Part shown: piece by piece, positions 1-14,982 of the stretch | How positions within the stretch are numbered: the first letter of the stretch is position 1 | Layout: each line of letters begins with the position of its first letter | NCBI RefSeq assembly: GCF_001562115.1 | Contig: NZ_CP013926.1 | Span: 4,092,001-4,156,000, forward strand | Direction of reading: 5' to 3' | Length of the DNA stretch: 64,000 bases | Source of the DNA: Alteromonas stellipolaris | GTDB taxonomy: Bacteria > Pseudomonadota > Gammaproteobacteria > Enterobacterales > Alteromonadaceae | Program-made: the position numbers and the translations under genes | Notes under the pieces: model-generated | The model's database searches: none | What the model was told of the DNA's origin: nothing | Seen by the model: the letters and a program-made list of their open reading frames with translations, nothing else

Positions 1-533
1 TCAATTCTTGGACATCTAAAGAGAGTATTGAGAATGTTGTTAATAAATTAAATGACAAGTATTTTTGGCTAGAGCAGTACGAGAACGAAGTCATTAAGTC
101 TGTAGACGAACTACAAAAAAGAGATACTAATTCTGACTTGACAGTTTACGATGTAATTGAACAGGTCGCAGAAAAAAGTAAGCCTTTTTATACTTTCAAT
201 CATCCAAGCAATGAAGTGTTGAGTCTATTATCGAAAAAAATCTTAAGTTATATTAATGAATCTTGCACTGGCCGAATAAAGTTAATCAAGGAGCCATTGG
301 CAGTTATTGTAGCTCCTACATTTACAGGGGCAGCGAGCGCCTTCGATTACAGATATGAGGCAACAAATTATTGTGTCGGATTCCAGCCTAAAGTAAGTGA
401 TGGTAAGATAATATCCAAGGGTATTAGAAAGGTTTTATCTAATTTAGAATTTGTCAAATATAGTTTTGAGCTTTACGATAAAACCCTTTCTGGTAGTACT
501 CTACTCAACCTACGATTTACACCAAGTTACTAA
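1..533 (+). CDS. WcbI-like polysaccharide biosynthesis protein, C-terminal part (cut by window edge)
   Basis: The reading frame is open from the first bases of the window to a TAA at 531-533, so only the C-terminal part (about 177 codons) is visible and the true start lies upstream. It contains a FYTFNHPSNEVL segment, which resembles the conserved HP-x-N region near the end of WcbI-type capsule proteins, proposed to be acyltransferases or hydrolases acting on surface polysaccharide. The next gene begins 2 bp after the stop, so the two are almost certainly co-transcribed. The family call rests on this short motif and on the locus and is tentative. Confidence 0.5.
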   Translation, partial: NSWTSKESIENVVNKLNDKYFWLEQYENEVIKSVDELQKRDTNSDLTVYDVIEQVAEKSKPFYTFNHPSNEVLSLLSKKILSYINESCTGRIKLIKEPLAVIVAPTFTGAASAFDYRYEATNYCVGFQPKVSDGKIISKGIRKVLSNLEFVKYSFELYDKTLSGSTLLNLRFTPSY

Positions 534-535
534 TC

Positions 536-1774
536 ATGTCTGTTTACAAAAACTATATACGTTATCCAAGAAATGAAAATAAGCCTAAGCCAGATTCGAG
601 TGACTTTACTTGGGGGCCCTTAACGCTAACTAATATCGAAAAATCACCTCGCACCGGAAGTGTTCTGCTTAATAGTGTTGAGTCTTATAAGATTGATAAT
701 CTTTACGATATGGGACGTGTACCTCCTTTACAAGGATGCAGATCTTTTATGGATAATCATTTATCTATAGAACACTTCGTATTTAGCACAAAGAATGTTA
801 AAGCAATTATGCCGTCAGGGGTCCTCATTCAAGAAAGTAACGATGAGTCTCCCGATGCTGTATTAGAAGCATCTTGTTATATGTCGTTAGGTTTTTTCCA
901 CCCAGATTTAATGAATGATAGAACAACTAAATGGCAGTGGCTCTTAAGAGAGGGAACAGATTTTGAACAATCCCCCGGAAGAATCGCGTGGTGTTATCAC
1001 CGATTTTACAATCAATACTTTCATTGGTTCATAGATTGCCTCCCTCGAATATGGTTGCTAAAAAAGTTTGATTTTGATTATGATAAAGTATTCGTTGGAG
1101 ACATCGCTAACATTGATTTTGCTCTAAAGTCTCTAGACGCTTTTGGTATCGATGAAACATCGATTGTGTACTTCGATGAGGGAAAAAACTTATTTTTTGA
1201 TGACTTAATTCTTCCAGTCACGAAAGTTACTGAACAAAGAAAAATAAGACCATCTTTGGGTGATGGAATACATTTTAAAGGTGGCTGGTCAAAGTCATAT
1301 ATAGTTGAACTAAATAACAGAATAGTCCAAAAATTTGCAAAAAACGATGCTAAACACCTCGGTTTTGACAAGATCTTTGTAGGACGGAATGATGCGTCTC
1401 ACAGAAGGGTTGAGAATATTGATGAAGTAGAAACACTTTTAGCTAAATACGGATTTGTTTTTATTGATCCAGGAACATTATCATTCGAAGATCAAGTAAC
1501 TATATTCCATTGCGCCAGAAAAATTGTCGGTATACATGGTGCTGGCATGACCAACATACTTTGGACTAATATAGATTCTACTGTAGATATAATCGAAATT
1601 GCTGTCGATGGATTGGACGATCCAGGATATCGAATGATCTCGGAAGCACTTTCCTTAAACTATCGAGCTATTGCAGGTTCACCAGTTGGAAACCATAGAG
1701 CGGGAATGGCATTTGATGATCTTCGTGTAAATATTATTGAATTAGAAGCAGAATTAAAAAATATAAACAGTTAA
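536..1774 (+). CDS. Glycosyltransferase family 61 protein
   Basis: This 412-residue protein has the hallmarks of the GT61 (DUF563) family. There is a YFHWFIDCLPR segment at about residues 161-171, a VGRND segment near 282, and an IHGAGMTN motif at 333-340 typical of the C-terminal GT-B half. No signal peptide or membrane segment is evident, so it probably acts in the cytoplasm, adding a sugar to a growing polysaccharide repeat. The start is ATG, 2 bp after the preceding stop, indicating an operon. The acceptor and donor sugars cannot be deduced. Confidence 0.85.
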   Translation: MSVYKNYIRYPRNENKPKPDSSDFTWGPLTLTNIEKSPRTGSVLLNSVESYKIDNLYDMGRVPPLQGCRSFMDNHLSIEHFVFSTKNVKAIMPSGVLIQESNDESPDAVLEASCYMSLGFFHPDLMNDRTTKWQWLLREGTDFEQSPGRIAWCYHRFYNQYFHWFIDCLPRIWLLKKFDFDYDKVFVGDIANIDFALKSLDAFGIDETSIVYFDEGKNLFFDDLILPVTKVTEQRKIRPSLGDGIHFKGGWSKSYIVELNNRIVQKFAKNDAKHLGFDKIFVGRNDASHRRVENIDEVETLLAKYGFVFIDPGTLSFEDQVTIFHCARKIVGIHGAGMTNILWTNIDSTVDIIEIAVDGLDDPGYRMISEALSLNYRAIAGSPVGNHRAGMAFDDLRVNIIELEAELKNINS

Positions 1775-1799
1775 TGGAAAATTAGCTGTTTTCTCAAAA

Positions 1800-1850
1800 G
1801 TTTTCGAACAACTGTCTGACTAATTAACCACATTGTTCGAAAACGATTTT
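1800..1850 (+). terminator. Inverted repeat after GT61 gene, possible terminator
   Basis: A perfect 12-bp inverted repeat, GTTTTCGAACAA at 1800-1811 and TTGTTCGAAAAC at 1833-1844, encloses a 21-nt spacer and is followed by a T-rich stretch. It lies 26 bp after the GT61 stop, where an operon end would be expected. The long loop is unusual for an intrinsic terminator, so a protein-binding palindrome is an alternative. The rest of 1775-2058 is AT-rich with nothing else recognisable. Confidence 0.4.
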
Positions 1851-2058
1851 ATTTTCATTCTGTTAGCAAGTGTTCAAAATACGATAAAGCTTAATGCAAT
1901 TTGTAGCAAAAAATTTTATATATTAAGGCAGGTTTTCACTTCTTTCAATCAATAAAAAACAGTTTAATATCGTTTTATCATTGAATATCAGAAGCTTACG
2001 CAATAATTACTATGCACATCATGAAACTTTAATCTTCTTAAAGCCTAGGCGAATTTAA

Positions 2059-2856
2059 TTGAATCAGTTTAACTTTAGCTCCCAAACTAATATTAACTTA
2101 AATAAAAATCCTTCACATTGTTTTGCAATGAACCACAGTATGATGATTTATAAAGTCGATACTCTTTATACCTTCATTCCTAAAAACGCATGTTCTACGA
2201 TGAGGCTGACTGTTGCGCACGAAAATGGCTGCATAAGTGGCATTGAAAACGGCCATTGGATCCATGGCAACAATCAAACTTTTGTGCCATCGATCAGTGA
2301 AGCTATTAAAGCCAAGTATAGCTTCGTTGTACTGCGATGTCCTTTCAGGAGACTTGCATCGGTTTATTTGGACAAATTTGTATCTAAGGAACCGGAGGCT
2401 TGGCAGTATAGAAATGCCACGAATAGGAATTTGAGCCTTGACAACCTGAGTTTTAAGCAATTTGTTTTATCTCTTGATAAACCTTTCAAAATTAATATGG
2501 ATATACACTGGCGACCTCAGTCGTCATTTCTTCTTTTCAAAAACTATAATAATTACTTTTCTCTTGAGGACTTTGCGGATTGTACACGCACTTTGAAGGA
2601 AAAGATAAATTTAGATGTTCTGGATGCTAGACCTTTAACTAATCACGGAACAAGTGGCTATGACTTAATATCAGATGATAATTTCTCTAATATGCCAGCT
2701 TTTGATATTGCTGTTATGAAAAGAGAAGGAAAATGTCCATCTCACGCAGCACTCTATGACAGTAGCCTAATCAAATGGGTTCGCGAAATTTATTCGTCCG
2801 ATATAGCGTTATATTCCAACAAAGTTGGAAGTAAGAATTTACTGTTTGAATCGTGA
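2059..2856 (+). CDS. Sulfotransferase family protein
   Basis: This 265-residue protein matches the carbohydrate sulfotransferase fold that uses PAPS. A 5'-phosphosulfate loop, FIPKNACST, lies at about 39-47 and a 3'-phosphate-binding segment, VVLRCPFRRLASVY, at about 90-103. No signal peptide is seen. The frame opens with TTG at 2059 directly after an in-frame stop; ATG at 2128 (codon 24) is a possible later start, and neither has a strong Shine-Dalgarno sequence. It probably sulfates a sugar of the polysaccharide built by the neighbouring glycosyltransferases. The P-loop has Asn-Ala where the classic motif has Thr-Gly or Ala-Gly. Confidence 0.75.
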   Translation: MNQFNFSSQTNINLNKNPSHCFAMNHSMMIYKVDTLYTFIPKNACSTMRLTVAHENGCISGIENGHWIHGNNQTFVPSISEAIKAKYSFVVLRCPFRRLASVYLDKFVSKEPEAWQYRNATNRNLSLDNLSFKQFVLSLDKPFKINMDIHWRPQSSFLLFKNYNNYFSLEDFADCTRTLKEKINLDVLDARPLTNHGTSGYDLISDDNFSNMPAFDIAVMKREGKCPSHAALYDSSLIKWVREIYSSDIALYSNKVGSKNLLFES

Positions 2857-3032
2857 AGTTTTTCAAATTTTCAAGGAAGTGTGATTCCCCCATTGACGAG
2901 CAACTACAATCGGCTTTTCTAATTTAAAGCTATATGGAGAAAGTAGTTAACTAGACCCAAATATCTACACTTTCCCAGATATTTTGTTAAAGTTACTCAA
3001 AGATAATATGTAGTTCCAACATGGAGAGCTAA

Positions 3033-4817
3033 GTGCTAAACGTTTTCAAGAAAAACAAAGGGGAGATCACCCCTGCCCTAATGAAAAATACAATAGAAAG
3101 CGAATTTAACGCTGAATTCTACGCTGAAAAATATACTTTTCTAGAGACCAACGACCACCTTTCCCATTTCGTGACAGAAGGTTGGAAAGAAGGACTCGAC
3201 CCTTGTGAGTGGTTCTCTACTAGTAAATATATACAGGCATATCCTGATGTAGCGGCGTCTGGCATTAATCCATTTTTTCATTATCTGTACTACGGAAAAG
3301 CAGAAGGAAGAAACGAGGGGTTAGTTGGCATCAGTGGCGATGCTAGTTTACGATCGCTAGTTAAAACATCAAATCAAGCCGACGAAGACTACCATAGCTC
3401 TAAGTACTTTAAAGAAGCTAGCAACATCCTTGGAACTGAACTCGAATTTACCACTGAACAGTTTGAACGCTTTGCCAATTGGACTAAAGTTGTTCCAAAG
3501 GCAACTGGCCCTCACCCTAACGTTAAAGCATTTTTAGATTCTGCATCAGCTACAGGAAGTGGTTGTGAAGCGATAACATCAGGATGGATTATCCGAAAAA
3601 AAGACTCCTTTGTTTGGTTTGAAACTAATCAAGGCCAAATACTTCCAATGCGTTCAGCGTTCTTTCAATATCGCCAAGATGTTTACGATGCATTTGAAGA
3701 CGAGATGACTGAAGCTCTCCCGCTTACAGGGTTTGTTCAAGCATTAACAGCTTGTAATCCTGGAACCCTATTAAGAATTTACGCACTTTCCTCTGAGGGT
3801 GCCCACGAGGTCGCGCAGTGTAACGTCGAACGTATTGATTCCGCCCCTAAAAAACTCGCAGAATTTTTAGCCTCTATTAATACTCCGTTATCCGAACTCC
3901 CAAAACGTATAACCAAAATAGATGAGCCTTTAATTACTAGTGCCATTGCTCAGAAAAACAAAGCAATAGCCGCTATGCCCCACGAGGTTTATAGTTTTGG
4001 TGAAACTACTGCCCCTGGAGCAAGCATAATAATACCTTTGTATGGCCGAGTAGACTTTGTTGAAGCGCAGATGCAGTGTTTCTCACAAGACATTTTCGTA
4101 CAAAATCATTGTGAATTAATCTACGTAATCGACGACCCTTCATTAGTTGAGCCTTTCAAGAAACTATCTAGCGATATTTATGCCCTTTATGGAATTCCAT
4201 TCAAAGTTGTTTGGGGTGGCTTAAACAGAGGCTTTTCCGGCGCCAATAATTTAGGCGTGGAATACGCGACAGCTCACTACCTACTTTTCCTAAATAGTGA
4301 TGCATTCCCAACAAACCCTGGCTGGGTTGAACAACTCACTGATGTGTTAAATAGCAATTCAGATTACGGTGTGGTTTCGCCAAGGCTCTTATTTGCTGAT
4401 GGTTCCATTCAACATGCAGGTATGGAATTCGTGTATCGGAATGAACTGTCGATATGGGTTAACCATCACCCTAATATGGGCATTGACCCAACTTTAGACC
4501 CGCATTCTGAACCAACCATTGTTCCGGCGGTAACTGGCGCATGTATGTTAATGACGCGTTCGCTTTTCGATTCTATTGGAGGGTGGGATAACGGATATTT
4601 GATTGGTGATTTCGAAGATTCTGATCTGTGCTTTAAAATCAGAGAAAAAGGCAAACACTGCATATATGTTCCGACCGTTGACCTGACTCATTTGGAACGC
4701 CAATCATTCAACTTAACCGGCGCTCCCGATTTTAGAACCAAAGTGGTAATATATAACGCTACCCGTCATCAGAACAAATGGTCTTCATTACTTAAGCAAA
4801 GCGTTAGTAACGGTTAA
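3033..4817 (+). CDS. Modular glycosyltransferase family 2 protein
   Basis: The 594-residue protein has three parts. Residues about 20-95 hold two copies of a short motif ending in H-(F/Y)-x3-G-x2-EGR, common in large marine polysaccharide enzymes. Residues about 175-285 form a probable beta-sandwich module. A GT2 (GT-A) domain spans about 330-560, with ASIIIPLYGR at its start, FLNSDAFP at the metal-binding position, and GWDNGYLIGDFEDSDLC at the acceptor site. The start is GTG with a GGAGAG Shine-Dalgarno at 3023-3028. It probably extends a polysaccharide in the cytoplasm. The middle module looks related to the C-termini of the two minus-strand sulfotransferases. Confidence 0.85.
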   Translation: MLNVFKKNKGEITPALMKNTIESEFNAEFYAEKYTFLETNDHLSHFVTEGWKEGLDPCEWFSTSKYIQAYPDVAASGINPFFHYLYYGKAEGRNEGLVGISGDASLRSLVKTSNQADEDYHSSKYFKEASNILGTELEFTTEQFERFANWTKVVPKATGPHPNVKAFLDSASATGSGCEAITSGWIIRKKDSFVWFETNQGQILPMRSAFFQYRQDVYDAFEDEMTEALPLTGFVQALTACNPGTLLRIYALSSEGAHEVAQCNVERIDSAPKKLAEFLASINTPLSELPKRITKIDEPLITSAIAQKNKAIAAMPHEVYSFGETTAPGASIIIPLYGRVDFVEAQMQCFSQDIFVQNHCELIYVIDDPSLVEPFKKLSSDIYALYGIPFKVVWGGLNRGFSGANNLGVEYATAHYLLFLNSDAFPTNPGWVEQLTDVLNSNSDYGVVSPRLLFADGSIQHAGMEFVYRNELSIWVNHHPNMGIDPTLDPHSEPTIVPAVTGACMLMTRSLFDSIGGWDNGYLIGDFEDSDLCFKIREKGKHCIYVPTVDLTHLERQSFNLTGAPDFRTKVVIYNATRHQNKWSSLLKQSVSNG

Positions 4818-4835
4818 AAGGAAGCAACTAAGCAC

Positions 4836-6083
4836 ATGAAACAAAGAATTTTAGTCGTATCTCATGGTCATCCCGATTTTAGTTTGGGTGGTGCTGAAAT
4901 TGCAGCTTATAACTTGTTTGAAGCATTTAAGAAAAATGAAAATGTGGAAGACACATGGTTTTTGGCTCGCGCTGATCGCGGTCGCGGCATTACTGGGCAA
5001 ATTCACAAACGTCGTGACAATGAGTATTTGTGGGAACAAGGCGTTGCTGACTGGCATTTAATGAAATCTGCGCATCAAGAGTCGGTAACTACATGGTTTG
5101 TGGATTTGCTTAAGTCACTTAAACCCACTGTCGTACACATTCACCATTATGCGCACATTGGCCTTGAGTTCATTCGGGCTATTAAAAAGTATGATAGCAG
5201 CATTAAAGTTTATCTAACCCTTCACGAATACATGGCTATTTGTAAACACAATGGTCAAATGGTGAAAACGGGTAAAGAAATGAAATTGTGCAGTAGCGAA
5301 AGTTACGATGAATGCAGAGGCTGCTTTCCAGAAAATACAGCTGAAGACTTTTGGCTTCGTAAGCACCATTTTAAGTCTGCGTTTGATCTTGCAGATGGCT
5401 TTATTTCCCCTTCTGAGTTCTTGCGCCAACGATACTTAAATTGGGGTATTAAGCAGGACGATATAGTGGTCATCGAAAATGGTCAAAGTGACTTGCCACC
5501 GATAGCCCCTCGCCCAATCGCAGAGAACGAAACTAGAAATAGATTTGGCTACTTCGGGCAAGTTAATCCGTATAAAGGGATAGATATTCTTTTAGAAGCG
5601 CTTCGGAGCATGACAAAAGAAGAAAGAAAACTAGTTCTTGTCGAAATACACGGTTCAAATTTAGAAACTCAATCTGGTGATTTTCAAATTAAAATTAAGA
5701 AGTTAGCTAAAAAATTAATTGCTGAAGGGTGCCTACGTTGGGTTGGTCCATACAGACCGGATGAGCAGCGAACAAGGTTGAAAGAAATAGACTGGGTGAT
5801 AGTACCATCGATATGGTGGGAAAACTCCCCAATGGTTATTCAAGAAGCTTTTACTGCCGGTAGGCCTTTGATTGTCTCGAACATCGGAGGTATGGCAGAA
5901 AAAGTACAAGACGGAGTTGACGGTCTACATTTTAGTGCCAGAAACCCTTTAGAGTTGGCAAACAAGTTAAAATACGCGGTATCTAACATAACACTGTGGA
6001 ATGATTTACATCAAAACATAGCCTCTCCCCTTAGTTACACCGAATGTGCTGAAGAGCACATGGCTTTTTTTGAGACGCGATAA
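4836..6083 (+). CDS. Glycosyltransferase family 4 protein
   Basis: This 415-residue GT-B enzyme begins with ILVVSHGHPDFSLGGAE, the typical GT4 N-terminal strand and glycine loop. The C-terminal half has FGYFGQVNPYKGIDILLEAL and the E-x7-E motif in ENSPMVIQEAFTAGRP that contacts the nucleotide-sugar donor. It probably transfers a sugar from a nucleotide diphosphate donor to a lipid-linked repeat unit. It lies 18 bp after the GT2 gene with a good AAAGGAAG ribosome-binding site, in the same operon. Sugar specificity is unknown. Confidence 0.88.
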   Translation: MKQRILVVSHGHPDFSLGGAEIAAYNLFEAFKKNENVEDTWFLARADRGRGITGQIHKRRDNEYLWEQGVADWHLMKSAHQESVTTWFVDLLKSLKPTVVHIHHYAHIGLEFIRAIKKYDSSIKVYLTLHEYMAICKHNGQMVKTGKEMKLCSSESYDECRGCFPENTAEDFWLRKHHFKSAFDLADGFISPSEFLRQRYLNWGIKQDDIVVIENGQSDLPPIAPRPIAENETRNRFGYFGQVNPYKGIDILLEALRSMTKEERKLVLVEIHGSNLETQSGDFQIKIKKLAKKLIAEGCLRWVGPYRPDEQRTRLKEIDWVIVPSIWWENSPMVIQEAFTAGRPLIVSNIGGMAEKVQDGVDGLHFSARNPLELANKLKYAVSNITLWNDLHQNIASPLSYTECAEEHMAFFETR

Positions 6084-6115
6084 AATTTTAACTTTACAAA
6101 CAAAGCGGAACACGT

Positions 6116-7294
6116 ATGAAAATTGGAATAATCACAAACCTAATTCACATCGACAGGTTTGTGAAATCGGAAATGGCATTTGCTGACTCTAAACGATGGA
6201 TGTCAGCTACAGGCGGAAATACAGGCAATACGGCTTTTGTTGAAGGCGTAAAAAAAATAATTAAAGCGGACGTTGTTAGAGAAGTTCATTGGGGAGATAA
6301 CCCTGAACAGGTGAAAAATGCTTATGACATGCTGGTCATTTGTTGCGCAAATCAAATAGGTGCACATGTCGATCTGGGAACTTGGGCAGATAGACTTAAA
6401 GCTTTCGATTTGCCTACCATGTTTATTGGTTTGGGCGCACAAAGTAACAATGTAGGAACCCATCCTGAAATACCTGAGGGCACTAAACGCCTTTTAGCAT
6501 TAACAAAAGAGCTTAGGGTCGACAGTTCGGTATCAAATATTATCACTAGAGGCTCTTTCACATCTGAGGTAATTGAAACTTGTGGTGTAGATTCAAATCC
6601 TTTTGGTTGTCCATCTCAATTCATTTCAACAGAACTGAATGTAGGTCAAAAGTGCCTAGAACACCAAGCATCTACTAAACACTTTAGAGTACTGACGGCT
6701 GCAGGTAATCCTTGGCACCCGTCCTATGTACTTGAAAAAACGCTAGTTGAACTTGTGAATCAGTATCAGGGCGACTATGTGATACAACACCCTGAAAGCC
6801 TCATCAAACTCTGTTTAAACGAAGGCTCTACTATTGATAGTAAGCAGCAAGAGAGACTAAAAACTGTATACAACTCTTTAGGAGACTGGGAAACAATTAC
6901 AAGTTGGTTTAAAAGCCATGGTGTACTTTTCGCGGATGCTCAAAATTGGATGCACTACTCTAAACGGTTCAGTTTGGCTGTAGGTCCTCGTTACCATGGT
7001 GTAGCCCTTCCAATTCAAGCTGGCGTTCCAGGTAAAGTGATTGCTATTGACTCTCGTACTGAAGAGCTTTCAAGTACAACAGGTATCCCATTTGTACGTT
7101 ATAAGGATGTAGAAAACTCTACTTCTGAAGAGTTAATCAACTGGTGTAAATGGACTAGCGAAGATGCTGAGTATTACGATAGTGTCCGGGCTAGAAACGC
7201 GGGTCACTACGTTCAATTCTTATCTAAAAACAAATTAGAATATGCATCGTCACTTGATGCATTGGCTACCCAATCTTCAATTACACCTGAGTAG
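6116..7294 (+). CDS. Polysaccharide pyruvyl transferase family protein
   Basis: This 392-residue protein resembles the CsaB/WcaK-type pyruvyl transferase family. An early GNTGN glycine loop, a MFIGLGAQS strand, an RGSFTSEVI segment, and the late AVGPRYHGVALPIQAGVP motif with its conserved R-x-H are all present. Such enzymes move pyruvate from phosphoenolpyruvate to a sugar hydroxyl as a ketal, giving the polysaccharide a negative charge. It follows the GT4 gene by 32 bp in the same direction. Some family members are glycosyltransferase-like rather than true pyruvyl transferases. Confidence 0.8.
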   Translation: MKIGIITNLIHIDRFVKSEMAFADSKRWMSATGGNTGNTAFVEGVKKIIKADVVREVHWGDNPEQVKNAYDMLVICCANQIGAHVDLGTWADRLKAFDLPTMFIGLGAQSNNVGTHPEIPEGTKRLLALTKELRVDSSVSNIITRGSFTSEVIETCGVDSNPFGCPSQFISTELNVGQKCLEHQASTKHFRVLTAAGNPWHPSYVLEKTLVELVNQYQGDYVIQHPESLIKLCLNEGSTIDSKQQERLKTVYNSLGDWETITSWFKSHGVLFADAQNWMHYSKRFSLAVGPRYHGVALPIQAGVPGKVIAIDSRTEELSSTTGIPFVRYKDVENSTSEELINWCKWTSEDAEYYDSVRARNAGHYVQFLSKNKLEYASSLDALATQSSITPE

Positions 7295-7303
7295 TCCGAC
7301 GCA

Positions 7304-8617
7304 ATGTTTTACGCAGATATACAAAGCTATTCATCTATAAAAGGAGCTCCCCAAAGCTCTTCATTGATAGCCATATTGTCACAGGCGGTATTCCAGAAAA
7401 ATGTAGACACTGCTATTTTCGTCATAGAATCAATATTTAGGGACGAGCATGTCAAATTTGAACACCCCTCATTACTAGGGGTATCCACTTACCCACGAGG
7501 TCAGATAACACAAGGAATGTGGAATGCGATAATTTTTTCAGATGAAAATTTTGAAAGCGCCTGGGCTATGATTCAATCTACGAGTTTCGTAGACTTTATT
7601 ATAACTGGCTCGAATATCTACTATATTGGAAAAAATAAAACTGACTATGTTGATAGTCAGCTAACAAAGCTAATTGCTACTATCAATGAAGGGCTATTGT
7701 GGAAAGATAGTGCTAAGAAGATTGCTTTTGAAATTGGGCAAACTACTCCATACCATTTTTTCTACGATCAATTTAAGTATTTACGATACCTCTGTACTTC
7801 GAAAATAGTGTACACGAATAGTAAACCTATTTTCTATGACCCTAAAGTATTCGACATAAAACTTTCTTATAGTAAGCCCGATGACACCGTTACTTTTTTT
7901 CCTGCTGTTGTAACTCAAAACTCGTGTAATGCATTGGGTTATGGTGGTGGGGATAGGACTCAGAAAGTACGAGTGCCATCAAAGCTGTCCAATAATGAAG
8001 TAACCGCAGCGCGTGTTAGAGAGTGCATGGAATCAATGGAACTTGCACTTCTAAATGATGGAAAAAAAGGAAGCACTCTTTCCGACCCATCAAAAAAACT
8101 CACTTTAGAATTGTGGATTGGTATTACATCAGCTAAGCGCGCCTGGTTAGAACAGCTAGAAGGTTATACCAACATACTAGAAAACTTGGCCAAAACATTC
8201 AACACAGTTAATGTCTACGTTGATGGAATGACATCAGCAATCAATTCATCGAATCCGACATCAAAAGATATCGAAATTTACAATCTATTAGTTTCGAATC
8301 TGATGTCAGTTGAAAATATTAAATTGATTTCATTAATAGGGTTTGATTACAAATCAAAAATCCAAAAATGTTTGAATATTGACGCGTTTATTACCAATGG
8401 AGGCACAAGTTCATTTGTACCGTTGAGGGTTTTGAAAAAACCAGGAGTTATTCATACAAACTCTAAACTGATGACTTTTCCTGACACTTACACAGATGTT
8501 ACGTTAATCACCGGTAAAGATGAAAATTCTACTAGCAATGAAGATCAAGCTGGCACTTTGTCATACAGTTTGAATTGGCAAGAAATATTAAAGGCTCTAA
8601 AGAGTCATTTGAAATAG
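7304..8617 (+). CDS. Uncharacterised protein of the polysaccharide operon (437 aa)
   Basis: I do not recognise this 437-residue protein. It has no signal peptide or membrane span. Two segments could be functional: PYHFFYDQFKYLRYL at about residues 148-162, and an FITNGGTSSFVPLRVLKKPG segment near residue 365. Their order and spacing resemble the HWF and HGAG segments of GT61-type GT-B enzymes, so a diverged glycosyltransferase is a guess. It starts 9 bp after the pyruvyl transferase stop and precedes the aldolase fusion by 16 bp, so it is in the operon. Base composition is AT-rich like its neighbours. Confidence 0.75.
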   Translation: MFYADIQSYSSIKGAPQSSSLIAILSQAVFQKNVDTAIFVIESIFRDEHVKFEHPSLLGVSTYPRGQITQGMWNAIIFSDENFESAWAMIQSTSFVDFIITGSNIYYIGKNKTDYVDSQLTKLIATINEGLLWKDSAKKIAFEIGQTTPYHFFYDQFKYLRYLCTSKIVYTNSKPIFYDPKVFDIKLSYSKPDDTVTFFPAVVTQNSCNALGYGGGDRTQKVRVPSKLSNNEVTAARVRECMESMELALLNDGKKGSTLSDPSKKLTLELWIGITSAKRAWLEQLEGYTNILENLAKTFNTVNVYVDGMTSAINSSNPTSKDIEIYNLLVSNLMSVENIKLISLIGFDYKSKIQKCLNIDAFITNGGTSSFVPLRVLKKPGVIHTNSKLMTFPDTYTDVTLITGKDENSTSNEDQAGTLSYSLNWQEILKALKSHLK

Positions 8618-8633
8618 AAAGGAAATTAATATA

Positions 8634-10229
8634 GTGATAGTTCTTGATTGCACACTACGTGATGGCGGTTATTATAATAGTTGGAATTTCCCTCAGCACG
8701 TGGTGGAACAATATCTACAGGCAATGGAAGCAGCTAACGTTAATATTGTCGAACTTGGTATGCGCTCTTTAAAAAACGAAGGTTTCAAAGGCGCTGCTGG
8801 CTTTACTACCGAGGATTATCTAGATACGTTGCCCATACCAACCTCACTAAAAGTTGGCGTGATGGTTAATGCATCTGAATTAGCTAGCGCACCCTCTCTA
8901 GAAGAAGCACTTGACTCACTTTTCCCTAAAGATGCTGACAAATCAAAAGTCGATTTAGTAAGAATTGCTTGTCATGTCCATGAATTTGAGCAAGCTTTGC
9001 CAGCGTGCGTGTGGCTAAAAGAAAGAGGGTTCTTAGTCGGGTTTAATTTAATGCAGGTTGCTGAACGCTCTCAAACTGAGGTTGAAGCGCTAGCATTGGC
9101 AGCTTCGAAATATGATATCGACGCTTTATACTTTGCCGATTCAATGGGGAGCATGGGACCTGAACAATGCAAAACTATCATCACATGGTTTAAAAAGCAT
9201 TGGAATGGCGCTATTGGTATTCATACGCACGACAATATGGGTAAAGCACTACAAAACACCCTTACGGCTATTGAAGAAGGCGTGACTTGGCTAGATGCTA
9301 CAGTTACGGGCATGGGACGCGGGCCTGGTAACGCAAGAACAGAAGAGCTTGTTATTGAGGTAGCTGCTTTACAGGGAAAAAATGTTAACTTAGTCCCGTT
9401 AATGGCTATTATTCGTTCATATTTCCAACCACTCAAAAACAAATGTGGCTGGGGCTCGAACCCATTTTATTTCCTCTCTGGAAAATATGGTATTCATCCG
9501 ACTTTTATTCAAGAAATGCTTAGCGATCCTCGGTACAGTGAAGAAGATATATTGGCCGCTATTGAGCATCTTAGGGTTGAGGGCGGCTCAAAGTTTAGTT
9601 TCAATACACTCGATGCCACTAGAAACTTCTTTAAAGAAAAAGGTAAAGGTGCGTGGTCTCCCAAAAGCCAAATCCTTGGAAAATCAGTTCTAATTCTTGG
9701 AGCGGGTCCAGGATTAAAGCAGCACACGTCGGCAATTCAATCATTTATTGAAAAGCACTCCCCTGTTGTTATTGCTATGAATGCTCAAAGCACGCTACCA
9801 GAAGAGTTGGTCGATTTGAGAATCGCTAGCCACCCAGTTCGCTTACTTGCTGATTGTCAGCATCACTTAGTGTTACCACAACCACTGATAACGCCTGCTT
9901 CGGCTTTACCTGATGATGTTACCGACTCACTCCAAGACAAAACTCTTTATGATTTTGCTTTGGAAGTTAGCGAAAACACTTTCACTATAGGTGAAACTTC
10001 AGCATCAATACCAAACTCTCTAGCTATAAGCTATGCACTAGCTGTTGCTGCTGCAGGATCTGCTAAACATGTTTATTTAGCTGGGTTTGATGGTTTCGGC
10101 TCAGGCGATAACAGAACGCAAGAAATGCAAAAAGTGTTAAATGCATTTATTGAACAGGTAAAGTTACCCATAACTTCAATTACCTATACCGAATACGATA
10201 TTCCATCGATCTCAGTTTATGGTGTCTAA
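8634..10229 (+). CDS. DRE-TIM aldolase fused to a C-terminal Rossmann-like domain
   Basis: The 531-residue protein has an N-terminal HMG-CoA-lyase / 4-hydroxy-2-oxovalerate-aldolase-type TIM barrel (about 1-280). It contains the DRE-type CTLRDGG motif at residues 6-12 and the metal-ligand pair in GIHTHDN near 197. After a helical linker, residues about 345-531 form a second domain starting LILGAGPGLKQH and later VYLAGFDGFG, resembling the MptE-like/DUF115 or GT42-type nucleotide-binding fold. The start is GTG with upstream AAAGGAAA. The next gene overlaps the end by 11 bp and encodes a CMP-Kdo-synthetase-like protein, pointing to pyruvate-dependent aldol formation of a ulosonic acid. The substrate is unknown. 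Confidence 0.8.
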   Translation: MIVLDCTLRDGGYYNSWNFPQHVVEQYLQAMEAANVNIVELGMRSLKNEGFKGAAGFTTEDYLDTLPIPTSLKVGVMVNASELASAPSLEEALDSLFPKDADKSKVDLVRIACHVHEFEQALPACVWLKERGFLVGFNLMQVAERSQTEVEALALAASKYDIDALYFADSMGSMGPEQCKTIITWFKKHWNGAIGIHTHDNMGKALQNTLTAIEEGVTWLDATVTGMGRGPGNARTEELVIEVAALQGKNVNLVPLMAIIRSYFQPLKNKCGWGSNPFYFLSGKYGIHPTFIQEMLSDPRYSEEDILAAIEHLRVEGGSKFSFNTLDATRNFFKEKGKGAWSPKSQILGKSVLILGAGPGLKQHTSAIQSFIEKHSPVVIAMNAQSTLPEELVDLRIASHPVRLLADCQHHLVLPQPLITPASALPDDVTDSLQDKTLYDFALEVSENTFTIGETSASIPNSLAISYALAVAAAGSAKHVYLAGFDGFGSGDNRTQEMQKVLNAFIEQVKLPITSITYTEYDIPSISVYGV

Positions 10230-10992
10230 TATGTCGCAGAGTGAAAGAGCTGTTGTGGTAATACCTGCTAGATTCGCTTCTAGCAGGTATCCTGGAAAGC
10301 CACTCGTGAAGCTTCTAGGCAAGCCAATGATATTGTGGGTCGCGGAACTCGCAGAAAAAGCTATTGGTCAAGAAAATGTGTACATCGCAACTGATGACGA
10401 GCGCATTAAGAATGTTGTCGAAGATGCGGGGTTTAATATAGTAATGACTGGTCCAGCGCTAACTGGAACAGATAGATTAGCCCAAGCTGCCGAACAAATT
10501 GACGCAGACATTTTTATTAATGTTCAAGGCGATGAGCCTCTAGCTGATCCTTCTGATATTATAAAAGTGTTAGACCAAAAACAAAGTTACCCTGAATTTG
10601 TTATCAATGGCTTTAGCTATCTAAACGATGATGAAGACCCTTCTAATATTAACATCCCCAAAGTTATTACTACTGAAGACGATAGATTAGTGTATATGTC
10701 TCGCGCGCCCATACCAGGTTTTAAAGACCAAGAAAACGCGCCTAAGAGGTATAAAAAGCAGGTTTGTATCTACGCTTTTAGTAAACACGAGTTAAGTGCT
10801 TTTGGGAGTTTTAGTAGGAAAAGTCTTTTAGAACAATCAGAAGATATAGAGATACTGAGGTTTCTTGAGTTCGGTAAAACCATAAAAATGATTGAGACCA
10901 AACCAGGAAGTTATGCAGTTGACGCACCTTCTGACGTTGAAATTGTTGAAGAAGCTATGAAATCTAGAGGGTTTAAAAATGAAACTCTCTGA
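10219..10992 (+). CDS. kdsB: 3-deoxy-manno-octulosonate cytidylyltransferase family protein (KdsB-like)
   Basis: This 257-residue protein has the CMP-Kdo synthetase signature: VVVIPARFASSRYPGKPL at about 8-25, ATDDERI near 56, GTDRLAQA, and FINVQGDEPL near 98. The family couples CTP to a 3-deoxy-ulosonic acid to give the CMP-activated donor. It overlaps the aldolase gene by 11 bp (a second ATG at 10231 is an alternative start) and the next gene by 14 bp, so translation is probably coupled. It may be specific to this capsule or EPS rather than being the housekeeping lipid-A-core enzyme. Confidence 0.88.
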   Translation: MVSNMSQSERAVVVIPARFASSRYPGKPLVKLLGKPMILWVAELAEKAIGQENVYIATDDERIKNVVEDAGFNIVMTGPALTGTDRLAQAAEQIDADIFINVQGDEPLADPSDIIKVLDQKQSYPEFVINGFSYLNDDEDPSNINIPKVITTEDDRLVYMSRAPIPGFKDQENAPKRYKKQVCIYAFSKHELSAFGSFSRKSLLEQSEDIEILRFLEFGKTIKMIETKPGSYAVDAPSDVEIVEEAMKSRGFKNETL

Positions 10993-11629
10993 TTATTCAA
11001 CTATCGCGTTTGATTGCGATGGTGTGATATTGAACTCAAATAAGGTAAAAACAAATGCTTTTTATGACGCTGCATTACCTTATGGTGAGAATAATGCTGA
11101 AAAGCTAAAAAAATATCATACACAAAATGGCGGAATCTCTCGATTTAAAAAATTTCGTTGGTTTGTAGACTTTTTTTTAGAGAGGTCTATTCGAAATGAA
11201 GCCTACGAGCAACTATTGACGCGTTATGCCGACATCGTTGAGAAAGGACTACTAAACTGCGAATTTAATGAAGACCTTTACGAATTAAAGAAACAGACAC
11301 AAAACGCAAATTGGTTGATAGTGTCTGGAGGCTCCCAGTCTGAATTGCGAGCATTATTCAAAAAACGTAATTTAGCTGATCTTTTTGAGGGTGGAATATA
11401 CGGAAGCCCTGATTCAAAAGAAGAAATTTTTGATAGAGAACTAGAGAAAAATAACATCAGCGTTCCTGCTTTATTTATAGGCGATAGTAAGTATGACTAC
11501 TTTTCTTCAAGTAAATACGGACTAGACTTTGTCTTTCTTAGTCAATGGACAGAAGTGGATGACTGGAAATCATTTTGTGAAGAGAACGGCATAAGCTATG
11601 TTGATTCTCTAAAATCGTTTAACCAGTAG
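10979..11629 (+). CDS. HAD-family hydrolase, probable sugar-acid phosphatase
   Basis: The 216-residue protein has HAD motifs in order: FDCDGVILNSN at about 11-21 (nucleophile and acid aspartates at 12 and 14), IVSGGSQSEL near 118 for motif II, and FIGDSKYDYF near 162 for motif IV. Its start overlaps the kdsB-like gene by 14 bp. In Kdo and nonulosonate pathways a HAD phosphatase removes phosphate from the acid before CMP activation, and that is the likely role here. The exact substrate is inferred from context only. It is the last plus-strand gene of the cluster. Confidence 0.8.
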   Translation: MKLSDYSTIAFDCDGVILNSNKVKTNAFYDAALPYGENNAEKLKKYHTQNGGISRFKKFRWFVDFFLERSIRNEAYEQLLTRYADIVEKGLLNCEFNEDLYELKKQTQNANWLIVSGGSQSELRALFKKRNLADLFEGGIYGSPDSKEEIFDRELEKNNISVPALFIGDSKYDYFSSSKYGLDFVFLSQWTEVDDWKSFCEENGISYVDSLKSFNQ

Positions 11630-13209: not shown

Positions 13210-14982
13210 TCAAGGTGTTAAATAAAAAGACAACCAGTCACGTTCTTGAGAATTTAGACTATCTTGTTGGGGTTGCCGTAGCATTTCTGCGTTCCATTTT
13301 TCATATAAACCTCTGAGTTCTTGTGCTTTCTCAGGCATATCTGAAATTAAGTTGTTCGTACTTGACTCTTCAGAAGATAGCTCGAATAAAAACTCATAAT
13401 CTGAGCCCATTCTAAGATATTTATAATTCCCGAGCCGAACAGCGGACTGATTCCAAAATCTCCAGAAAAGAGGTCTCTCTGAAAGATAGTTTTTATTAAA
13501 GCCTTCTGTAGGGAAGATATCGACACCATCTAATTCAGATAATATATCTTCAGTCGCCCCCGCAACTTTTATTGCTGAGTAAAGAACATCCAAACTAATA
13601 ACTGGCTCTTCAATAACAGTATTGTTTTGCAATTTGTCTGGCCAATGTACGATAAAGGGTACTTTTATACCGCCGTCTGTCAGCATGCCTTTTTCGCCTA
13701 ACAAAGGGGTATTAAGCGACCCATTCCACGCCTCTTTTTTCTCACTGATAGGTGCATCGGTAAAATCAAGTCCGATTGGCGCGCCGTTATCACTAATAAA
13801 TGCGATAATCGTATTATCTAAAATTCCGTGTTCTTCAAGCTTTGAGACTATTTTGCCTACACCCGAGTCTACAGCGTACATCATTGCTAACGCATACCTG
13901 CGTCTATTCGATGTTTGCTGAGGGAATAAGGATAAGTAATCTTCTGTTGCCTCTAAAGGCACATGAGGGGCGTAGTGAGCTACGTGAAGATAAAACGGCT
14001 CATTGTGGTTAATGTCAATAAATTGGGATGCCGCATCTGAAATAACATCCAGCCTGTAGTCTGAATTGTTCACCCACCCTAGCTCTGTTGTATTTCCATG
14101 CAAATCGTAATTGGCCCAATAGCGATTTGCATAACCGAAATAGTTATATCTATAGCCCAAAGATGAAGGGTAATATTGCTCTTTCAATGAAGAGGGTAAT
14201 TTTCCTGGATTAAAATCTTCAATAGGAGTATCTGGAAAATTCTCCCTAAACCAAGGTTTTGAATTTTGGTCGATCTCAAGGTGCCATTTTCCGACTAACC
14301 CAGTGGTATAACCCAAATCTGAAAATCGATCACCCATTGTCACCACGTCTTTAGGTATTGGCGTGTACCTATTGTCATCTACCCCAAATCTTTGCTGATA
14401 CATGCCAGTAATCATTCCCGCGCGTGAGGGAGTGCACTGCGGAGCGGTAATATAGCCATTTGAAAATAGTACGCCGTTAGCAGCTAGCTTATCTATATTC
14501 GGAGTTTCTATATCGTTAACTATATTATGAGCCCCTACGTCGGCATACCCCTGATCATCGGTGAAGATAACAATGAAATTTGGTTTAGATGGAATAATTA
14601 AAGACTGCGCACTGACACTAAATTTACTGCCAGATTCGTCCACTAGTCTTGCTGTAATTGTAAAAGGAGTGCGTTTGCGTACTTGTGGAGCAATAAAACT
14701 AAATGTCTTGTCGCTTGTCTTTGACACATCTAGGGGAGCCCCAAGTGACGAACTCCACGATTCAAGTGTCACACTCTGATCGCTGCTCGTTTGGGAGGAG
14801 TTTAATGTTACAAATACTTTTACATCAGATGTAAATTCTTTGGGCAAGGCTATTGAATAAATGTTGCCTGTTTGATTTTTTCCCGAGGATGCACTCTGCG
14901 AAGACGAATGTGAATCGCCTCCACAGGAACATACACATAATAATGCTAAGAAAGACAAGCCCCACAGTTTTATCGCATCCAT
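13210..14982 (-). CDS. Sulfatase, lipoprotein (arylsulfatase family)
   Basis: The 590-residue protein starts with a signal peptide ending VCSC-GG, a probable lipidation site at Cys20. A beta-rich segment follows at about 40-130, then a sulfatase domain from FIVIFTDDQGYADVG at 136-150. The formylglycine motif CTPSR begins at Cys183, and GKWH lies at 231-234, so the active site looks intact. It would hydrolyse sulfate esters in the periplasm or at the outer membrane, and needs a maturase encoded elsewhere. A sulfatase between two sulfotransferases is notable: it could trim the cell's own polymer or scavenge sulfate from algal glycans. Confidence 0.9.
   Translation of the reverse strand: MDAIKLWGLSFLALLCVCSCGGDSHSSSQSASSGKNQTGNIYSIALPKEFTSDVKVFVTLNSSQTSSDQSVTLESWSSSLGAPLDVSKTSDKTFSFIAPQVRKRTPFTITARLVDESGSKFSVSAQSLIIPSKPNFIVIFTDDQGYADVGAHNIVNDIETPNIDKLAANGVLFSNGYITAPQCTPSRAGMITGMYQQRFGVDDNRYTPIPKDVVTMGDRFSDLGYTTGLVGKWHLEIDQNSKPWFRENFPDTPIEDFNPGKLPSSLKEQYYPSSLGYRYNYFGYANRYWANYDLHGNTTELGWVNNSDYRLDVISDAASQFIDINHNEPFYLHVAHYAPHVPLEATEDYLSLFPQQTSNRRRYALAMMYAVDSGVGKIVSKLEEHGILDNTIIAFISDNGAPIGLDFTDAPISEKKEAWNGSLNTPLLGEKGMLTDGGIKVPFIVHWPDKLQNNTVIEEPVISLDVLYSAIKVAGATEDILSELDGVDIFPTEGFNKNYLSERPLFWRFWNQSAVRLGNYKYLRMGSDYEFLFELSSEESSTNNLISDMPEKAQELRGLYEKWNAEMLRQPQQDSLNSQERDWLSFYLTP

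Follow-up and report, generated by a model that had tools for sequence, protein, structure and literature searches.

Can a pathway to a sugar acid activated with cytidine monophosphate (CMP) begin with a pyruvate aldolase? 3-Deoxy-manno-octulosonic acid (Kdo) and the sialic-type acids have a central place on bacterial surfaces; their established routes, through KdsA and NeuB, begin with a phosphoenolpyruvate (PEP)-dependent synthase. The question is raised by a locus of Alteromonas stellipolaris (RefSeq assembly GCF_001562115.1, contig NZ_CP013926.1) within a stretch of 64,000 nucleotides (positions 4,092,001 to 4,156,000, called the window throughout), in which three consecutive genes encode an aldolase fused to a Rossmann-type domain, a KdsB-like cytidylyltransferase and a phosphatase of the HAD family (hereafter the cassette). 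We assign a probability of about 0.58 to the reading that the cassette is a pathway devoted to making a CMP-activated 3-deoxy-2-ulosonic acid for a surface polysaccharide; its reactions are all deduced, from the gene content, predicted folds, residue conservation and gene co-occurrence documented below. Such a pathway would be of a known kind, CMP-ulosonic acid synthesis, and unexpected in its first enzyme and in the fusion.

Results

Recurrence of the cassette and exchange of its cytidylyltransferase

Scanning contigs with the aldolase yielded 349 confirmed relatives; the 80 best loci (L008-L087) were kept, selected on aldolase similarity alone. They belong mostly to Gammaproteobacteria, the others being Alphaproteobacteria, four actinobacteria, one betaproteobacterial bin and one planctomycete bin. 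A cytidylyltransferase was found within 3 kb of the aldolase in 77 of the 80 loci and within 100 bases in 66 of these 77; in the remaining three (L020, L066, L079) the sequence stops within 203 bases of the aldolase. By chance such proximity is expected in about half a locus of 80, as estimated from the 63 PF02348 matches (E ≤ 0.001) that 20 genomes with the cassette contain (together about 82 Mb by rounded sizes), and glycan loci exceed this background, a second cytidylyltransferase being present in 8 of the 80 (L016, L030, L062, L064, L068, L071, L074, L076). Chance or artefact was rejected as an explanation because the cytidylyltransferase recurs in 77 of 80 loci. A relative of the HAD protein is encoded on the aldolase strand in 73 of the 80 loci, at a distance that can reach several kb (many Marinobacter loci), and on the opposite strand in one (L077); the six loci that lack it are the three cut loci, L055 (only 776 downstream bases in reach), L067 and L084.

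When all neighbours in the 80 loci were clustered, just two families, the aldolase (in 78 loci) and the HAD protein (in 70), were present in more than half, followed by two cytidylyltransferase clusters (38 and 35 loci) and a family resembling nucleoside diphosphate (NDP)-sugar dehydratases (26 loci). No gene for a special precursor recurs, so the precursors are probably universal metabolites, namely pyruvate and a common aldose or aldose phosphate. Of 89 loci searched, 9 of them only about 4-5 kb long, three contain a NeuB-like gene and one contains kdsA.

The cytidylyltransferase itself is of changing type. By best BLAST match 38 loci carry a KdsB-type partner, 33 a NeuA/PseF-type partner and 6 a further type, NeuA-like and accompanied by an HpcH/HpaI aldolase, and all three NeuA-like proteins tested exceed the PF02348 cut-off. 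Mapped onto a 59-row tree of the aldolases, the three partner labels require 13 changes, at least 7 of which are forced for the KdsB label by well-supported branches, with the bootstrap not fully settled; the labels are still more clustered than shuffled ones, which require a mean of 21.8 changes. The 59 rows were drawn from the 65 of alignment A2, which lacks some of the 80 loci, and five P-numbered rows and L079 were omitted as having no known partner. The changes on the tree indicate that the partner was swapped repeatedly and its activity retained. This exchange is our strongest argument that CMP activation would belong to the pathway of the aldolase. Plasmid copies offer a contrast that also speaks for the pathway: four aldolase relatives without the C-terminal domain, matching only the first 289-328 residues, have no cytidylyltransferase within 8 kb, whereas a full-length copy on a Leisingera plasmid is part of a whole cassette; the sample is small, the four having been picked among 30 of 254 records listed. 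One locus, L030 (aldolase at 9977-11593), has a NeuA-type gene before the fusion and a KdsB-type gene after it.

The distribution of the cassette is scattered. Within the order, 9 of 295 genomes match at E ≤ 1e-30, 8 of them through the C-terminal domain, and within the phylum 11 of 398 match at E ≤ 1e-25, the match spanning the entire protein in just two, this genome and another of the same genus. The closest relatives of the cassette are found in Alteromonas and Aestuariibacter. Six more distant forms (L090-L095; 37-39% identical) are likewise accompanied by a cytidylyltransferase and a HAD protein. E. coli genomes gave no match, so no typed O or K antigen is available to name the sugar.

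The three enzymes

The sequence-only reading had described three overlapping genes, and these were borne out by the open reading frames (ORFs), by Pfam matches and by predicted structures that divide the fusion into two domains (Table 1). The aldolase and KdsB-like genes overlap by 11 bases and the KdsB-like and HAD genes by 14 bases; the first overlap depends on the start chosen, as the KdsB-like gene has an in-frame ATG (the M of MSQ) just 3' of the aldolase stop.

The aldolase half matches the Pfam HMGL-like family with 91 bits (cut-off 29), and its predicted structure, a TIM barrel followed by a helical domain, shares the fold of DmpG. In an alignment of 65 rows its metal and pyruvate residues are invariant. 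Compared with the 4-hydroxy-2-oxovalerate aldolases DmpG and BphI it differs in its score against the HOA model TIGR03217 (97.9 bits, under the curated cut-off of 286), in a Tyr at the position of the catalytic His and in its gene context: no acylating aldehyde dehydrogenase adjoins it, the neighbours being the cytidylyltransferase, the HAD protein, glycosyltransferases and other glycan genes. A further likeness is to the N-terminal domain of BVU_2661 from Bacteroides vulgatus (PDB 3dxi), deposited as a putative aldolase. Homocitrate or isopropylmalate synthase, the name given in some sources, was rejected as the nearest relative because the top-ranking models and structures are of HOA type; the superfamily is common to all.

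The KdsB-like enzyme contains the NVQGDEP stretch, matches PF02348 (CTP_transf_3) with 127.1 bits (cut-off 22.6) and passes the subfamily model NF009905 (268.1 bits, cut-off 255); it falls short of the KdsB equivalog TIGR00466 (132.9 bits, cut-off 155.2) and is 36% identical to the housekeeping KdsB of the same genome. In a tree of 55 rows, with housekeeping, NeuA and PseF labels assigned by best match and context, 38 cassette enzymes form a branch (support 100/99) separate from housekeeping KdsB. The lone row labelled housekeeping within that branch, L113, is really the cassette copy from the L075 genome, and the housekeeping rows L107 and L115 are poor, with very long branches, and probably represent wrong frames; all three rows were kept in the counts. 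The HAD protein carries the DxD signature and matches the Pfam HAD hydrolase family with 36.6 bits (cut-off 26.4); no KdsC-named model matched it at E ≤ 0.1.

The genome (4.90 Mb, two contigs, estimated 100% complete) was searched for a separate kdsA and a second kdsB, and both were located (C1:1844050 and, with 329 bits, the housekeeping kdsB at C1:2461208), so the cassette gene is not the only kdsB. Two NeuB genes (C1:2310834 and C1:2321320) with two further cytidylyltransferases nearby and a Maf-like protein of 1068 amino acids (aa) at C1:2328003 also lie elsewhere. The cassette is therefore additional to the Kdo route and to two apparent nonulosonic acid routes. It contains no PEP-dependent synthase of its own.

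The C-terminal domain of the fusion

The sequence-only reading had likened this domain to MptE/DUF115 or GT42 proteins, and the likeness holds for the predicted fold and fails for the Pfam models at their cut-offs. In the predicted structure the domain has the Maf/DUF115, MptE and GT42 fold along its whole length, with the Maf glycosyltransferase of Magnetospirillum (PDB 5mu5) as top structural match (178 of 190 residues). An unrelated fold was rejected on this structural comparison; SteA, HPPK and thiamine pyrophosphokinase have the same fold as well. In Pfam only a sub-threshold match to MptE-like (PF01973; 13.5 bits, cut-off 34.6) was obtained, which 6 of 46 members of the domain family reach at E ≤ 0.05 (best 3.1e-5). 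The GT42 model PF06002 did not match the domain at its cut-off and gave a single, sub-threshold match in 143 genomes of the class. Maf differs in being a large multi-domain protein acting on flagellin, whereas the domain described here is part of an aldolase fusion. Its profile showed no detectable sequence relation to the genome's own Maf-like protein (hhalign probability 1%).

A dedicated search for separate copies of the domain listed 98 proteins; most come from contigs only a few kb long and could be pieces of fusions. Some lie on longer contigs, for example P0131 (Pseudomonas aeruginosa, 208 aa, 6.7 Mb contig) and P0171 (324 aa, 345 kb contig), which are apparently separate, either through a split gene or as a real stand-alone form.

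Proposed pathway and alternatives

In the pathway that we favour, the metal-dependent aldolase half would condense pyruvate with an aldose, which central metabolism probably supplies as an aldose phosphate, and would take over the position of the PEP-dependent synthase (KdsA or NeuB). The HAD protein, judging from its family and its place in the cassette, would strip the phosphate, and the KdsB-like enzyme, whose family function is known and whose substrate is presumed, would link the free acid to CMP. The C-terminal Maf/GT42-like domain may then bind the CMP-acid or a precursor, as transferase or sensor. This order of aldol addition to an aldose phosphate, dephosphorylation and CMP activation is the most economical because the gene set mirrors KdsA-KdsC-KdsB. 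The earlier proposal of an unusual CMP-activated acid gains from the conservation of the cassette with swapped cytidylyltransferases, whereas the aldol reaction, the sugar made and its transfer by the C-terminal domain are hypothetical.

Several observations weigh against this pathway. Tyr13 takes the place of the catalytic His21 of DmpG in 65 of 65 aligned rows, an invariance that is partly a selection effect, one of the two search patterns having contained YY. Standalone aldolases of the same kind occupy other contexts, so the aldolase family is not tied to CMP-sugars. L067 and L084 have long flanks and yet no HAD gene. In six loci (L018, L026, L063, L083, L084, L085) a second gene of pyruvate-aldolase type, HpcH/HpaI, is present and could be the real former of the carbon-carbon bond. 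For none of the organisms that carry the cassette was a substrate, a product or a polysaccharide structure found.

The HpcH/HpaI loci and the exchanged Tyr also favour a different division of labour, in which the DRE-TIM half produces or trims a precursor, or works in the retro direction, while the acid is formed by another enzyme, for instance the HpcH aldolase. We regard this as unlikely, since 74 of the 80 loci have no HpcH gene in the available stretch (short in some cases), no other synthase is regularly nearby (the NeuB- and KdsA-like genes noted above amount to just 4 of 89 loci), and the metal and pyruvate residues do not vary. Still less probable, in our estimate, is that the KdsB-like enzyme is a capsule-type CMP-Kdo synthetase (of the kind of KpsU) activating ordinary KdsA-made Kdo, with the aldolase fusion and the HAD protein unrelated to it. 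Its best PDB match, 1gq9 (3-deoxy-manno-octulosonate cytidylyltransferase, E 7.1e-41), its passing of NF009905 and the presence of kdsA in the genome agree with such a role, but the 33 loci with a NeuA/PseF-type partner retain the aldolase and, in nearly all cases, the HAD protein. Among 20 cassette genomes (19 carriers found via the loci and this genome) kdsA scored above its cut-off in 17 and was not found in three, all actinobacteria (L054, L062, L064), where the cassette should therefore not serve KdsA-made Kdo unless the gene is missing from the assembly. One of the three, Garicola (L054), has a KdsB-type cassette, an argument limited by the 17 other genomes having kdsA anyway.

We give even odds to a milder alternative, in which the favoured pathway is right and the C-terminal domain is not a transferase: it may be a sensor of the CMP-acid or of CTP, in the manner of other DRE-TIM synthases, whose C-terminal domains bind end products, or an MptE-like kinase or diphosphokinase acting on the aldehyde. 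More speculative, and in our judgement doubtful, is a truly bifunctional enzyme whose aldolase half would make the acid and whose Maf/GT42-like half would transfer or sense it after CMP activation by the partner, a third logic beside KdsA and NeuB that would have spread between phyla in surface-glycan loci.

Comparison with known routes

The Kdo pathway KdsA-KdsC-KdsB resembles the proposed one in the addition of a three-carbon unit, a HAD phosphatase and CMP activation, the third cassette enzyme being a relative of KdsB. It differs in that KdsA uses PEP and belongs to another family than the cassette aldolase, in that the genome keeps its own kdsA and kdsB elsewhere, and in that the HAD protein matches no KdsC-named model and the cassette KdsB forms a separate clade. 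The sialic, legionaminic and pseudaminic acid routes (NeuB; NeuA, PseF or LegF; Maf or GT42) share with the cassettes the NeuA/PseF-type partner of 33 of the 80 loci and the predicted Maf/GT42 fold; they differ in their use of NeuB, absent from the cassette, with the two NeuB genes and the Maf-like gene of this genome placed elsewhere, and in having no fusion of aldolase and transferase-like domain.

If the favoured pathway is correct, a metal-dependent pyruvate aldolase replaces the PEP-dependent synthase, which predicts that marine bacteria and others, among them actinobacteria in which kdsA was not found, make acidic sugars of a class not yet recognised. Proteins currently annotated just as 'aldolase' or 'homocitrate synthase' would gain a function as well, and so, perhaps, would the fused Maf-like domain. 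A description of the cassette was not found in the PubMed Central (PMC) literature among the matches listed, most subscription journals lying outside that scope, and the portions of PMC7281560, PMC11766843, PMC11641403 and PMC3210612 that were available link no unusual acid to it.

Genomic context

The trio closes a plus-strand run of polysaccharide genes (Table 1). The first ORF of the window (138-533) is the last part of a polysaccharide gene of the WcbI family (300 aa) whose start lies before the window (L097:16631-17533); a glycosyltransferase gene also precedes the window, together with genes that look like dTDP-rhamnose genes. From 12052 onwards the opposite strand encodes two members of glycosyltransferase families, one of the sulfatase family and two proteins that match nothing in Pfam. 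The sulfotransferase (2059-2856) and the sulfatase-family protein (13210-14982) share this region, pointing to a sulfated glycan.

Table 1. Features of the cassette and of the genes upstream (positions in the window).
Feature	Position	Strand	Reading
Polysaccharide genes: GT61, sulfotransferase, GT2, GT4, pyruvyl transferase	536..7294	+	Upstream context
437-aa protein, no known family	7304..8617	+	Directly upstream of the aldolase fusion; candidate acceptor-side or transferase gene
Aldolase fusion, 531 aa, GTG start	8634..10229	+	
Aldolase half, residues 1-335	8634..9638	+	HOA/DmpG-like DRE-TIM barrel and helical region; putative pyruvate aldolase
C-terminal half, residues 342-531	9657..10229	+	Maf/MptE/GT42-like Rossmann-type domain (predicted); candidate CMP-acid transferase, sensor or kinase
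KdsB-like cytidylyltransferase, 257 aa	10219..10992	+	Proposed maker of CMP-ulosonic acid
HAD-IA phosphatase, 216 aa, DxD motif (FDCDG)	10979..11629	+	Proposed phosphate removal ahead of activation

The 437-aa protein that ends the upstream run has relatives in 22 of the 89 loci, this one included (among the others L009, L022, L027, L037, L051, L066 and L085), and in 16 of these loci an ORF stops no more than 100 bases from the aldolase start. It matches no Pfam family above cut-off, and its best PDB profile match has an E-value of 0.11. Our guess is that it acts on the acceptor side, and it is possibly a new family of glycosyltransferases.

Another family, of about 425 aa and without Pfam match above cut-off, lies near the aldolase in 10 Marinobacter loci (L030, L038, L039, L042, L049, L053, L057, L060, L063, L065); a PDB profile search with one member gave no match below E 0.1. 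Two other Marinobacter neighbours, each from a cluster that covers 8-9 loci, are a protein carrying an O-antigen-ligase domain (80 bits, cut-off 31.7) and one whose match to a Kdo/WaaP-kinase model stays below threshold (19.9, cut-off 21.3), so the acid may belong to the lipopolysaccharide core in Marinobacter.

In the six loci with an HpcH/HpaI gene, this gene directly follows the aldolase fusion and is accompanied by the further NeuA-like type of cytidylyltransferase. Aldolases without the C-terminal domain are encoded on plant-symbiont plasmids in L133 and L134, where SDR and HAD-IA genes adjoin them and L134 has, in addition, an annotated phosphoserine aminotransferase gene; these aldolases perhaps serve a different pathway.

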